The notes below the pieces were generated by a model, which worked only from the letters and a program-made list of their open reading frames with translations, was not told where the DNA came from and made no database searches. Positions 32,789 through 37,465 of a DNA stretch of 38,271 bases are shown here, one piece after another. The stretch is from contig JACPYP010000008.1 in assembly GCA_016195985.1 (NCBI GenBank), positions 1 through 38,271 on the forward strand. The letters are read 5' to 3'. How positions within the stretch are numbered: the first letter of the stretch is position 1; the number at the start of each line of letters is the position of its first letter. The position numbers and the translations under genes are program-made. Source of the stretch: Acidobacteriota bacterium (GTDB lineage: Bacteria; Acidobacteriota; Holophagae; Holophagales; Holophagaceae).

Positions 32789-33031
32789 TCAGTGCTGGCA
32801 GGCCGGAGCCATGCCGAGGCTCACGGAGCCACCCACCACGCGGACCTTGCCCTTGCTGCCCAGGAAGGCGAGGACGCCGTCGAAGTCGAAGCTGTCGCCG
32901 TGGCAGTTGCAGTAGATGGCGGAAGGACCGTGAACGGCGGCGGAAGCCGCGCGAAGCTCTTCCACTGAGCAGGTACCGCCCTTCTCCACCAGGAGGCCCA
33001 GCAGATCGTGGCCGTAGAGGGGTTCGGACAT
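32789..33031 (-). CDS. YecH-like metal-binding protein
   Basis: An 80-residue protein resembling E. coli YecH (DUF2492) along its length: the opening GHDLLGLLVEKGG, then YCNCHGDSFDFDGVLAFLGSKGKV, and the closing CQH. The Cys-x-Cys-His pair and the terminal Cys-x-His could together bind one metal ion. The role of the family is not established. The ATG at 33031 has CCGGAG six to seven bases upstream; the ATG at 33055 would place its AGGAG only two bases away. The leader contains a perfect palindrome (see the regulatory feature). Confidence 0.85.
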   Translation of the reverse strand: MSEPLYGHDLLGLLVEKGGTCSVEELRAASAAVHGPSAIYCNCHGDSFDFDGVLAFLGSKGKVRVVGGSVSLGMAPACQH

Positions 33032-33105: not shown

Positions 33106-34428
33106 TCAGGCCTTCCAGGACTTCGAATACACGTCCAGCACCCCGGTCTTGACCACGTCCAGCCCGGTGTCCGCATCGGTGAGGACCACAGCGTATTCGT
33201 CCGGGCTCGAGGTGTTCTGCCGCCACTGCCAGCCGGTGTAGCCGATGCCTGCGGCGTTCATCCGGCTCAACCCCGCCTCCAGGTAGAACTGGCCAGGATC
33301 CTCGGCGGTGCGCACCCCGAACTGCTGGATGAAGACAGGGACGTTGCGGCTGGCCTTCATGGCCGCCAGAGCCCCCAGCCGGGCATCGAGGGTCGCCAGG
33401 TTCTGGGCCTGGGTGCCGTTGGGATGGATGAAGAGGTTGCCGGTGTAGACCACCCGGTTGGCCCACCGGGGTGCCGCGATGTAGGCCTCGTCGCAGAGGT
33501 TGATGTTGTAGGCATCCCGGGCGCCGACGAGGAAGGGCGTGCGGGTGTCTCCGGCGGCCTCCTCGATGGCGGTCATGAGCTCCTGGTAGAAGGCCGAGAC
33601 CTCGGCCGCGGCGGCGGCATCCCGGCCCGCCAGGGGTTCGGGCAGCAGCTCGTAGAAGGCGATGTTCGGCTTGGTCCTGAGGAGGCCCGCCAGGTGGACC
33701 CAGGCCTCCTTGAACAGCTGGCGCTGGGTGAGGTCGGTCCAGAAGTTGTGGCCGCCTGGGAAGCGGCCGCTGGGATCGCAGTAGGCGACCATGCCCGCGT
33801 TCTGCAGGCCGTTCTGGCCGCAGTTCGAATCGATGGCGGGGATCACCCAGAGCCCCGCATCGAGGCACCATTGGATTTCCTTGAGGAATTGGGCGAGATG
33901 GGCCGGATCGAAGTGCCCGGGGGAACCATCCAGGCGGCTCTCCACATCGGTGCCTCCGTAGAGCCCCCACCAGCGGATGAGCACCCGCACCACCCGCGCG
34001 CCCTGAACCGCCATCGTGGCGGCATCGGTGCTCCGCATCTCGCCCCAGGTGCCTTCATTCATGCCGCGCAGGAGGATGGGAGCCCCGCTGGGCAGGAGCA
34101 TCTGCGAGCCGTTCAGAGTGAGGCGGGCCGGTCCAGCCGGGGGCGGAGAAGGGGAAGGCCCGGGGCCGCCCGGCCCGCTCCCCCCGCAGGCCGCGGCCAC
34201 CAGGGTGCTGGCCAGGGCCACGAGGGCCGTTCGCCGGCTGATCAGCGGGCTGATCTGCGGGCTGATCTGCGGGCTGATCTGCGGGCTGATCTGTGGGCTG
34301 ATCTGCGGGCTGATCTGTGGGCTGATCTGCGGGACATGGGCCCAGGGCAGGCTGGACGGGGACATGGCGGGGAAACCTCGCAGGACAGCGCCCGGATTCA
34401 GATCCTGGCGGAAGGTGGGGGCAGACAT
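33106..34428 (-). CDS. GH5-like (cellulase-fold) Tat-exported lipoprotein with altered catalytic motifs
   Basis: A 440-residue protein. After ~30 residues come seven QISP tetrapeptides, then a twin-arginine signal with lipobox (LISRRTALVALAS...VAAAC). The rest resembles glycoside hydrolase family 5: LRGMNEGTWGEM, ARVVRVLIRWWGL, WCLDAGLWVIPAID, and a late GYTGWQW. The usual acid/base motif NEP is here LLPEP, keeping Glu but replacing Asn by Pro. The usual nucleophile motif (G-E-F/W-G after beta-7) is IQQFG, with Gln369 where the catalytic Glu is expected. It is therefore probably not an active retaining glycosidase and may bind glycans. Starts at 34428 or 34365 are both possible; neither has a strong ribosome-binding site. 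It lies 80 bp downstream of holB on the same strand. Confidence 0.8.
   Translation of the reverse strand: MSAPTFRQDLNPGAVLRGFPAMSPSSLPWAHVPQISPQISPQISPQISPQISPQISPQISPLISRRTALVALASTLVAAACGGSGPGGPGPSPSPPPAGPARLTLNGSQMLLPSGAPILLRGMNEGTWGEMRSTDAATMAVQGARVVRVLIRWWGLYGGTDVESRLDGSPGHFDPAHLAQFLKEIQWCLDAGLWVIPAIDSNCGQNGLQNAGMVAYCDPSGRFPGGHNFWTDLTQRQLFKEAWVHLAGLLRTKPNIAFYELLPEPLAGRDAAAAAEVSAFYQELMTAIEEAAGDTRTPFLVGARDAYNINLCDEAYIAAPRWANRVVYTGNLFIHPNGTQAQNLATLDARLGALAAMKASRNVPVFIQQFGVRTAEDPGQFYLEAGLSRMNAAGIGYTGWQWRQNTSSPDEYAVVLTDADTGLDVVKTGVLDVYSKSWKA
34237..34332 (-). repeat. 12-bp tandem repeat encoding QISP units
   Basis: Seven consecutive 12-bp units, GCTGATCTGCGG on the plus strand with two C-to-T variants (34249-34332), plus one degenerate unit (GCTGATCAGCGG, 34237-34248). 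They lie inside the N-terminus of the GH5-like gene, just before the twin-arginine motif, and encode Gln-Ile-Ser-Pro. A 12-bp unit keeps the frame, so copy-number change alters spacing, not reading. Confidence 0.9.
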
Positions 34429-34486
34429 CCCATAGACCCCGCCCCCGGGCCCGGGTTGACCCTGGGAGCCGCATGCACCAAAGCCC

Positions 34487-34516
34487 GATCGATCTAGGCC
34501 GGATCGATCTAGGCCG
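34487..34516. repeat. 15-bp tandem duplication at the end of holB
   Basis: GATCGATCTAGGCCG occurs twice in a row (34487-34501, 34502-34516). The holB stop codon (CTA on the plus strand, 34509-34511) lies within the right copy, and the left copy carries the same stop in frame. Confidence 0.85.
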
Positions 34517-35528
34517 GCTCCCCTCCCAACGCCAGGGCCACTTCCCGCAGCAGCGGCTCGGGGCTGAGGTTCCGGGGCAGGTGCCTCAGGGCCATCAGCA
34601 CCGCTTCCTGGGGGCTTTTCAAATCGCGGGCTGCGGTGGCCAGCGGCGCCAGCTCCTCGCGCCAGGGGGCCAGGGCCGGGCCCTCGCCGGCCCGCAGGCG
34701 GGCCAGGTCCGCCAACAGGCGCAGCAGCAGTTCCAGGGGTTGGCGCAGCTGCTCTCCCTGGGCCAGGGCGGAATCCTTTTCGGGCAGCAGGGGCCCGGCC
34801 CATTCGGCGAAAGGACGGCCTCCGAGAAGGGCGATCCAGGCCTCCACCTGCGCTTCGGCGCGGCGGAAGGCGGCTTCGTCCAGAAAACGCAGGCTGCCCT
34901 CGCCCAGGGCCGTCCAGCGGTCATGATCGCCTTCCTGCCAGCCGTGGCGTTGGGCCACGGCCCAGGCTTCCCGCGGGGCCAGGGGCGCGAAGGGAATCCG
35001 CTCGCAGCGGCTGCGGATGGTCTGCAGCAGGGCTTCGGGCCGGTGCGTGACCAGGATGAAGTGAGTGTCCCGCGGCGGCTCTTCCAACGTCTTCAGCAGA
35101 ATGTTTCCGCTGGATTCGTTGAGGCGGTGGGCTTCCTCCACCAGGATCCAGCGATGGCAGCCCAGGGGCGGCGCCAGGGCGGCCCACTCGATGACACCCC
35201 GGCTGAAGCGCGGCTGGTTGTTGGAATCGAGCCCTTCCCGGATCTGATCGATGCGGATGACGCCGGCCTTGCCCTCGGGCGCGATGCGGAGCAGGTTCGG
35301 CAGTTCGAAGGGCAGTTCATCCTCCATGAACAGCCGGCAGCCCTCGCATTGGCCGCAGGCGCTGCGCCGCAGGCAGATCTCCCGCTGGGCCAGCTCAAGG
35401 GCCACGCGGCGCTTGCCGATGCCTTCGGGCCCCGTGAACAGCAAGGAACCGCGGATGCGGCCCTCGTTCAGGCGTCCGAGCAAGCGTTCGCGGATGGCCT
35501 GGTGGCCCGCGATGCCAGGCGAGTACAT
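34509..35528 (-). CDS. holB: DNA polymerase III subunit delta' (clamp-loader)
   Basis: Part of the clamp loader that places the sliding clamp on DNA. The 339-residue AAA+ protein starts with GHQAIRERLLGRLNEGRI and has a P-loop-like GPEGIGKRR, the zinc-binding cluster ICLRRSACGQCEGC, WILVEEAHRLNESSGNILLKTLEEPP (Walker B region) and the sensor-1 LVTHRPEALLQTIRSRCERI with the SRC motif. The size and missing C-terminal extension separate it from DnaX. The ATG at 35528 overlaps the tmk stop by one base (TGATG), so the two are coupled; the tmk-holB order is common in bacteria. Confidence 0.92.
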   Translation of the reverse strand: MYSPGIAGHQAIRERLLGRLNEGRIRGSLLFTGPEGIGKRRVALELAQREICLRRSACGQCEGCRLFMEDELPFELPNLLRIAPEGKAGVIRIDQIREGLDSNNQPRFSRGVIEWAALAPPLGCHRWILVEEAHRLNESSGNILLKTLEEPPRDTHFILVTHRPEALLQTIRSRCERIPFAPLAPREAWAVAQRHGWQEGDHDRWTALGEGSLRFLDEAAFRRAEAQVEAWIALLGGRPFAEWAGPLLPEKDSALAQGEQLRQPLELLLRLLADLARLRAGEGPALAPWREELAPLATAARDLKSPQEAVLMALRHLPRNLSPEPLLREVALALGGEPA

Positions 35529-36280: not shown

Positions 36281-37465
36281 GTGGCCGAAGCGATCCATTG
36301 CCCGAGCTGCACCACGCGCTACCGCCTCAGCCCCGAGCGGCTGAAGCCGGCCATCCGCCGTGCCAAATGCTTCAGTTGCGGCGGCGTGTTCCCGGTCGGC
36401 GATGTCGTGCAGCGCTTGCTGGCCCTCCGGCCCGCCATCCAGCCGGATCCCTTGCCCGACGCGCTGCCCGATGCCTTGCCCGACATGTCGGCCGATGTCT
36501 CGCCTGACGTCTCGCCCGATGTCTCGCCCGATGTCTCACATCGGGGGACGGCAGGCTTCACCCTGGATGACGTGGCCGCTGCCCATGCCTACCTGCCGGA
36601 ATCCGAGCCCCTGCTCGAGCCCGACAAGGTGCCCACGCTGGAACTGAGCGATCTGGACGTGGCCGATGCCGAGATCCTCGAGAAGACCCTCGCGGAAACC
36701 CCAGGGTCCCTGCCCGAAACCAAGCCCGGGGGCCCCATTCCCTTCCCTCCGGAGATCACGGAGACCACCCTTTCCGGCTACACCTCCGCCCGGGACGCCA
36801 TCGAAAAGCTCTTCGGCAACGTGCCTGCGGCCGCCAGCGCCCTGAAGGTGAACCGGGAACCCGGCGCCATGGACATGGAAGCCACCATGTCCGCCCTGGA
36901 CACCACCCTGGGAACGGCCCCCACTCCCCCGGCCCCAGGCACTGAATCCGCGGGCGGCAACCCCCTATCCACGGGCGATGGCCCCACGGCCGCGGGCCTG
37001 ACAGAGGAAGATCTCGCCGGGTCCTCCACCTCCACCATGCGCCTGTCCCAGGAAGACCTTCAGGCCATCGTGGCTTCCGCTCCCGCGCCTGCCCCTGCCG
37101 CCGAGCCCACCGTGGCCCTGCGCGCCTCGGACCTTCTCGCCGCCAAGGGATCCCCCGCCTTCACGCCCACGAACGACCCCCAGGAAAGCGGAGCAGAACT
37201 GCTGCGCCTCAAGATCGGCGAGGACATCTACGGCGGCCTCACCATGCCCCAGATCATCGCCTGGGTCGAGGAGGGCCGCATCCTCGAGAACCATCTCGTC
37301 GCCCGGCAGCAGAGCGAGAATTGGCTGGAAGCCCATAAAGTGCCCGGCCTGCGGCCCGTCTTCGAGCGCCTCCGCCGGGAACGCAGTGGCGGCGCCCCCA
37401 GCCTGAGCCTCGGCGAAATCGCCCCCAAGAAGAGCCTCTTCGGCGGCTTGTTCGGAAAGAACTGA
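36281..37465 (+). CDS. Zinc-ribbon (MJ0042-type) protein with acidic/Pro-rich linker and GYF-like C-terminal domain
   Basis: A 394-residue protein. The N-terminal ~35 residues form a zinc ribbon (CPSCTTRYRL...KCFSCGGVFPV), as in MJ0042/zf-ribbon proteins of many Proteobacteria and Acidobacteria. Then come eight tetrapeptides (DPLP, DALP x2, DMSA, DVSP x3, DVSH), a long low-complexity acidic and Pro/Ala-rich region, and around residues 305-365 a segment (YGGLTMPQIIAWVEEGRI, NWLEAHKVPGLRPVFE) like the GYF_2 domain, which binds proline-rich peptides. The end is basic and hydrophobic (KKSLFGGLFGKN). The start is GTG at 36281, six to seven bases after AGGAG. The next gene starts one base after its stop and encodes a very Pro-rich protein, a possible partner. 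Function unknown. Confidence 0.8.
   Translation: MAEAIHCPSCTTRYRLSPERLKPAIRRAKCFSCGGVFPVGDVVQRLLALRPAIQPDPLPDALPDALPDMSADVSPDVSPDVSPDVSHRGTAGFTLDDVAAAHAYLPESEPLLEPDKVPTLELSDLDVADAEILEKTLAETPGSLPETKPGGPIPFPPEITETTLSGYTSARDAIEKLFGNVPAAASALKVNREPGAMDMEATMSALDTTLGTAPTPPAPGTESAGGNPLSTGDGPTAAGLTEEDLAGSSTSTMRLSQEDLQAIVASAPAPAPAAEPTVALRASDLLAAKGSPAFTPTNDPQESGAELLRLKIGEDIYGGLTMPQIIAWVEEGRILENHLVARQQSENWLEAHKVPGLRPVFERLRRERSGGAPSLSLGEIAPKKSLFGGLFGKN
36446..36541 (+). repeat. 12-bp degenerate tandem repeat encoding DxxP tetrapeptides
   Basis: Eight in-frame 12-bp units. The last four are nearly identical (GATGTCTCGCCT, GACGTCTCGCCC, GATGTCTCGCCC, GATGTCTCACAT), while the first four are more diverged (GATCCCTTGCCC, GACGCGCTGCCC, GATGCCTTGCCC, GACATGTCGGCC). 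They encode DPLP-DALP-DALP-DMSA-DVSP-DVSP-DVSP-DVSH after the zinc ribbon. Confidence 0.85.

Follow-up and report, generated by a model that had tools for sequence, protein, structure and literature searches.

The locus and its gene product

The window, that is, the whole stretch of 38,271 nucleotides that was analysed, carries on its minus strand an open reading frame encoding a GH5-like putative lipoprotein (NVPVFIQQFGVRT; Table 1). A preliminary description of this DNA had placed it correctly, together with the CAG codon discussed below. The flanking genes encode a DUF2492 protein (32789-33031), glyoxalase-like and esterase-like proteins, a DNA polymerase III delta-type subunit and a thymidylate kinase. 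The start codon is uncertain: the homologues favour ATG 34365, as their candidate start codons are found tens of residues ahead of the twin arginines. Counted from this ATG, the CAG codon (33324-33322) specifies Gln348; counted from ATG 34428, it specifies Gln369, the number used in the preliminary description.

A Tat signal and a lipobox had also been assigned to the protein. Twin arginines and a lipobox-like cysteine are indeed visible (SRRTALVALASTLVAAAC), but the NCBIfam TAT model TIGR01409 scores 14.4 and thus stays below its cut-off of 16.7. The same succession is found in all 12 rows with a readable N-terminus, i.e. the window, core loci of the genome_contigs collection (L012-L015, L017, L018 and L020-L023) and L007; in L021 it was identified by eye, the regular expression having missed it, and L016 and L019 are truncated by the ends of their contigs. 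Twin arginines followed by a lipobox-like cysteine also occur in L038 and in L026, a fragment. The PQIS-encoding tandem array was not seen upstream of the twin arginines in homologues whose upstream stretch was read. A second 12-bp tandem array (6 copies, 36466-36537) encodes PDVS repeats in a neighbouring ORF with a zinc-ribbon-like start, so that the window genome may be prone to tandem arrays of this in-frame, 12-bp type. Furthermore, a 15-bp direct repeat (2.3 copies, 34483-34517) falls where the DNA polymerase III delta-type gene ends and in the spacer between it and the GH5-like gene.

Table 1. Features of the GH5-like gene and positions of the residues discussed (window coordinates)
Feature	Coordinates	Strand	Basis or remark
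GH5-like putative lipoprotein CDS	33106..34365	-	419 aa; alternative ATG 34428 gives 440 aa; homologues with same architecture
Twin arginines Arg44-Arg45 to lipobox-like Cys60 (RRTALVALASTLVAAAC)	34186..34236	-	Sequence; twin arginines and Cys conserved
12-bp tandem array, 8.2 copies, 94% matches, in-frame; PQIS repeats in signal-peptide n-region	34236..34333	-	Repeat detection
GH5 (PF00150 Cellulase) domain, predicted barrel	33214..34089	-	E 3.3e-15; AlphaFold; structural matches
Asp179, beta-3 column (His in 17/25 readable others)	33829..33831	-	Aligned to His of 6jyz
Pro242, replaces Asn of NEP	33640..33642	-	Alignment
Glu243 (GAA), acid/base position of beta-4 motif LLPEP, kept	33637..33639	-	Alignments and column counts
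Asn310, replaces beta-6 His	33436..33438	-	N in 17/17 clade rows vs H in 25/25 readable others
Gln348 (CAG), replaces beta-7 nucleophile Glu, motif VPVFIQQFG	33322..33324	-	Alignments and column counts
Trp379, beta-8 Trp kept	33229..33231	-	W in 17/17 clade rows

Predicted fold and catalytic positions

The match to PF00150 scores 56.8 bits, above the curated Pfam cut-off of 23.5, and covers residues 93-384, leaving 35 residues to the C-terminus. No other Pfam family matches the protein at E up to 1, and no carbohydrate-binding module was found in it by Pfam; membership of a family with other catalytic residues, which the preliminary description had named as a reason to abandon its reading, did not emerge. 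An AlphaFold2 model computed from the window domain and 12 homologues (model residue + 77 gives the protein numbering) has a pLDDT of 79.1 and a pTM of 0.84, with four short stretches below 50. It is a (beta/alpha)8 barrel like those of solved GH5 enzymes, in which Gln348 lies in the seventh strand (model residues 267-274) and the acid/base Glu comes after strand 161-164. Of the 539 structures that Foldseek matched at E 0.001 or better, the best 50 are, by title, GH5-type glycosidases and glycoceramidases. VIA-align gave a Z of 29.8 to both 6jyz (endogalactoceramidase) and 9ku5 (GH5_22), with many GH5 enzymes close behind; since Z is nearly equal across so many enzymes, no substrate was deduced from the best structural match.

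A profile built from seven relatives was aligned to solved GH5 structures. In this alignment Gln348 falls on the nucleophile Glu of 6uje (GEFG) and of 6jyz (GEWG), and LLPEP falls under LLNEP. No other glutamate was aligned on that column. The single-sequence alignment likewise puts Gln348 on GEFG of 3wsu and on GAFG, with Ala, in 4y7e, these segments scoring only 3-4 bits. Hence the replacement of the nucleophile by Gln was borne out by alignment, predicted fold and conservation, which support the loss of the canonical GH5 nucleophile in this GH5-fold putative lipoprotein. By contrast, the preliminary description was mistaken in holding both canonical sites to be altered: the acid/base Glu is present in LLPEP, where only the preceding Asn is replaced, a position that is itself variable in relatives. 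Among the catalytic residues of retaining glycosidases of GH5 and clan GH-A, the beta-7 nucleophile Glu is therefore absent and the beta-4 acid/base Glu present. The barrel had also been thought otherwise preserved. This holds for the fold, but not for the beta-6 His-x-Tyr, which reads Asn310-Leu-Phe312, nor for the beta-3 column, occupied by Asp179. The roles of the beta-2 Arg, beta-3 His, beta-6 His and Tyr and beta-8 Trp are those that we take to be general in GH5.

Conservation and distribution of the clade

The main alignment comprises 44 rows, 17 from the clade of the window protein and 27 others. At the nucleophile column all 17 clade rows have Gln, against Glu in 25 and Gly in 1 of the 26 readable others (L070, a gap there, was not counted). 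An extra control set gave 12 readable non-clade rows, all with Glu, 11 of them new (L075 is the L036 protein, already counted). Together with L098, L101, L074 and eight Acidobacteriota matches (L106-L113), all with Glu, the pooled controls have Glu in 47 of 48 readable distinct non-clade relatives and Gly in one. Left out were L091, which repeats the L074 protein in truncated form, and the weak match L074_p0_984 (E 0.006), which has Asp at this column and does not look like GH5; the PF00150 loci L085, L094, L095 and L096 gave no row with the clade profile and also lie outside the count. These controls were selected because they resembled the clade profile or came from a genome that also has a clade member, and are not a random GH5 sample.

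The beta-6 column is as sharply divided (Table 1). The acid/base column has Glu throughout the clade (17/17) and in 24 of 25 readable others, the exception being Ala in L060. The residue before this Glu is Pro, Ser or Ala in the clade, and N (18), V (5), C (1) or T (1) in the 25 readable others. At the beta-3 column, the clade has Asp in 15 rows, Glu in L044 and Arg in L010; the 25 readable others have His (17), Arg (7) or Leu (1). Arg127 is kept in 17/17 clade rows (others: R 16, N 7 of 23 readable) and Trp379 is also present in 26/26 readable others. In L060 (genome G1191), another GH5-like protein from the Acidobacteriota, the alignment shows Ala for the acid/base and Gly for the nucleophile, so that both catalytic residues seem to have been lost there independently.

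Across the 14 core rows, one of which is the window, 157 of the 339 alignment columns do not vary, among them Asp179, Asp197, Glu239, Glu243, Asn310, Gln347, Gln348, Trp379 and Arg382. Gln348 is encoded by CAG in 11 of these rows and by CAA in 3; its presence in 14/14 by two codons makes a sequencing error very unlikely. Nei-Gojobori (NG86) dN/dS values range from 0.06 to 0.22 in 9/9 pairs, with dS from 0.6 to 1.5. The gene is therefore under purifying selection and maintained. In a maximum-likelihood tree of 41 rows, which leaves out the partial L052_p2, L063 and L070 and predates the later control additions, the 17 Gln rows form one side of a branch with support 100/99. The branches leading to the deep members are long, a situation in which groupings can be spurious, as the tool warned.

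The gene is rare and patchy. Of 77 genomes from the window's family, 7 match at E 0.001. Clade members are present in six of these (G000, G009, G014, G053, G057 and G059, the last as a contig-end fragment without the beta-7 part), and the match in G033 is a canonical GH5 (L009). The scan of genome_contigs gave 15 loci with 66-83% identity over the best segment, on the Holophagaceae side in Geothrix limicola, G. rubra and two Holophagaceae MAGs, and on the proteobacterial side in Massilia, Noviherbaspirillum, Herbaspirillum, another Oxalobacteraceae record and three further proteobacterial MAGs. Twelve of them were aligned with the window and share 72-83% identity with it; L026, a fragment, was excluded, as were L024 (4491-5407, a Rhodoferax MAG) and L025 (5821-7023, Massilia sp. 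H-1), both split between reading frames by gene decay or sequencing error. Ten of 392 genomes match in the Noviherbaspirillum family sample, five being its own seeds and one (G585) frame-split; 1 of 398 matches in the Pseudomonadota sample, the seed alone; and 4 of 297 match in the Acidobacteriota sample, all within the window's family. Among full-length copies in Holophagaceae (Acidobacteriota) and Oxalobacteraceae (Pseudomonadota), identity is 72-83%. The rarity and patchiness in two phyla point to transfer between them, the direction of which the 41-row tree does not resolve. A viral or phage origin was rejected, no relatives being found in viral_contigs or in phage records, and so was spread by plasmids: the sole plasmid match is a distant one from Persicobacter (L044), and the L010 query gave none.

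L044, 26% identical to the window protein, and L010, the second lipoprotein of G053 (28%), are deep members. They read DQVG and DQFG, respectively, with Asp at position 347, and have Asn at the beta-6 His column and Ser or Ala before the acid/base Glu. L044 has no lipobox and carries a Por secretion tail, and L010 has a lipobox without twin arginines. Going by these motifs, anchoring varies within the clade. The ORF adjoining L044 resembles a sulfatase by motif.

When 12 loci, several of them cut by contig ends, were compared by eye, no neighbouring gene was seen in more than two, and an operon clue was rejected on this ground. L016 and L021 have a small ORF in common, and L012 resembles the wider region of the window (tmk, a glyoxalase-like gene and a prepilin peptidase), with the GH5-like gene elsewhere in it. 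In L013 (7085-8557, a Holophagaceae MAG) and L018 (7168-9333, Noviherbaspirillum galbum), the gene is followed directly downstream by a DEAD-box-helicase-like ORF, by chance or as a shared transferred stretch. The GH5-like protein is the only PF00150 match of the window genome, and the sole match in 8 of 13 homologue genomes; four others carry further GH5 proteins, and G053 has two, both of the Gln type. A role as no more than a decoy for an active GH5 paralogue is therefore unlikely in most genomes, but four of the 13 do carry other GH5 proteins.

Possible functions and comparison with known glycosidases

Computed results, namely the predicted fold, the substitution, its conservation, the purifying selection and the absence of a recurring gene neighbourhood, underlie our best reading, to which we give a probability of about 0.58: a non-hydrolysing, surface glycan-binding pseudoenzyme with a GH5 barrel. 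The protein would be exported, probably by the Tat route, and then tethered at the cell surface through the lipobox cysteine. Because the nucleophile Glu is Gln, double-displacement hydrolysis would be lost, and the conserved cleft could instead hold a glycan, with Gln348, Asn310, Glu243 and Trp379 as putative hydrogen-bonding and stacking ligands. Its role might be adhesion or glycan capture. The carbohydrate-binding or structural role suggested in the preliminary description is a reasonable conjecture. Gln in 17/17 clade rows forming one tree group, against Glu in 47 of 48 others, and the beta-6 His changed in concert (Asn in 17/17) support this pseudoenzyme reading. The invariance of Glu243 even at 26-28% identity argues against a pure binder, which would not need to keep the acid/base, and so does the carboxylate at the beta-3 column in most clade rows. 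The lack of a Pfam carbohydrate-binding module, neighbourhoods that hint at no substrate, and the different anchoring of L010 and L044 also weigh against it.

Since the acid/base Glu is as conserved as Gln348 and the beta-3 column carries a carboxylate, altered chemistry and a relocated nucleophile are retained as rivals; the preliminary description left the former unweighed because it counted the acid/base among the altered sites. It is possible, if rather unlikely, that the protein is an active enzyme with rewired chemistry. Glu243 would act as acid/base and Gln348 would orient or stabilise, the nucleophile being supplied by the substrate (e.g. a 2-acetamido group), by water (inversion) or by an acceptor (transferase). 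Glu243 and Gln348, each invariant in 17/17 clade rows, and the kept Arg127 and Trp379 fit such chemistry. Clan GH-A offers a precedent in myrosinase, where Gln naturally replaces Glu at the other catalytic site, the acid/base (PMC6274110). Against this reading, in well-known substrate-assisted families a helper residue adjoins the acid/base on beta-4, where this clade has Pro, Ser or Ala.

Improbable in our view is a still-hydrolytic retaining enzyme whose nucleophile would have moved to a nearby Asp or Glu, Gln348 then implying no loss of function. Asp179 stands where many relatives have His, L010 and L044 carry Asp at 347, and Asp197 and Glu239 are invariant in the 14 core rows. However, neither of the candidates at 179 and 347 is kept throughout the clade, L010 having Arg at 179 and 15 other members Gln at 347, and the alignments place Gln348, not 347, on the nucleophile column. 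Gene decay or sequence error could explain the two frame-split loci among the 15 from genome_contigs (L024 and L025), but as an account of the window gene it is very nearly dismissed by dN/dS well below 1 in 9/9 pairs, by frames open in all 14 core rows and by a Gln kept across two phyla through both codons. More generally, we hold it only tentatively that this deep bacterial GH5-fold clade, with Gln for the nucleophile, the acid/base Glu kept and a beta-3 carboxylate in 16/17 members, might perform glycan chemistry by a mechanism new to clan GH-A, be it substrate-assisted, inverting, by transfer or with a relocated nucleophile.

Like catalytic GH5 members (PF00150, clan GH-A retaining beta-glycosidases), the window protein has PF00150 as its sole Pfam match, a barrel fold and the kept Glu243, Arg127 and Trp379. 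Unlike them, it has Gln as the nucleophile residue, Asn-x-Phe for the beta-6 His-x-Tyr, Asp for the beta-3 His and Pro for the Asn of NEP. Annotation by the family model alone would label these proteins cellulases. No account of this Gln348 clade was found in the literature searched (open-licence PMC papers). However, non-catalytic GH5 proteins have already been described by Aspeborg et al. 2012 (PMC3526467), who also admit alternate mechanisms: GH5_30, GH5_8-related lipoproteins, a Xanthomonas GH5_1 subgroup and Rsi24C-GH5, which interacts with crystalline cellulose. These groups resemble the present clade in being GH5 modules with incomplete catalytic machinery, and one of them consists of lipoproteins. 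They differ in that GH5_30 has fungal members, which lack the essential residues, in that paper, with whose text alone our clade was compared, whereas the clade was found only in bacteria (in the bacterial, viral, phage and plasmid collections); the GH5_8-related lipoproteins carry a large extension at the C-terminus, whereas the window protein ends shortly after its Pfam match; and Rsi24C-GH5 lost the acid/base, whereas our clade keeps it and lacks the nucleophile. Since non-catalytic GH5 proteins are thus known, the present clade would be a variant of that kind which, as far as the published descriptions allow, fits none of the described groups. It is a non-canonical GH5 protein, mostly encoded by a solitary gene, that is common to members of two phyla.

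Myrosinase, which belongs to GH1 in clan GH-A, is an active enzyme. It resembles our clade by its natural Glu-to-Gln change at a catalytic position, according to PMC6274110, and differs from it in that the acid/base is changed there and the nucleophile here. Hence, the conserved half-site of the clade, in which the acid/base is kept and the nucleophile is Gln, is the mirror image of the myrosinase change and lends itself to a simple mutant test of glycan binding versus new chemistry.
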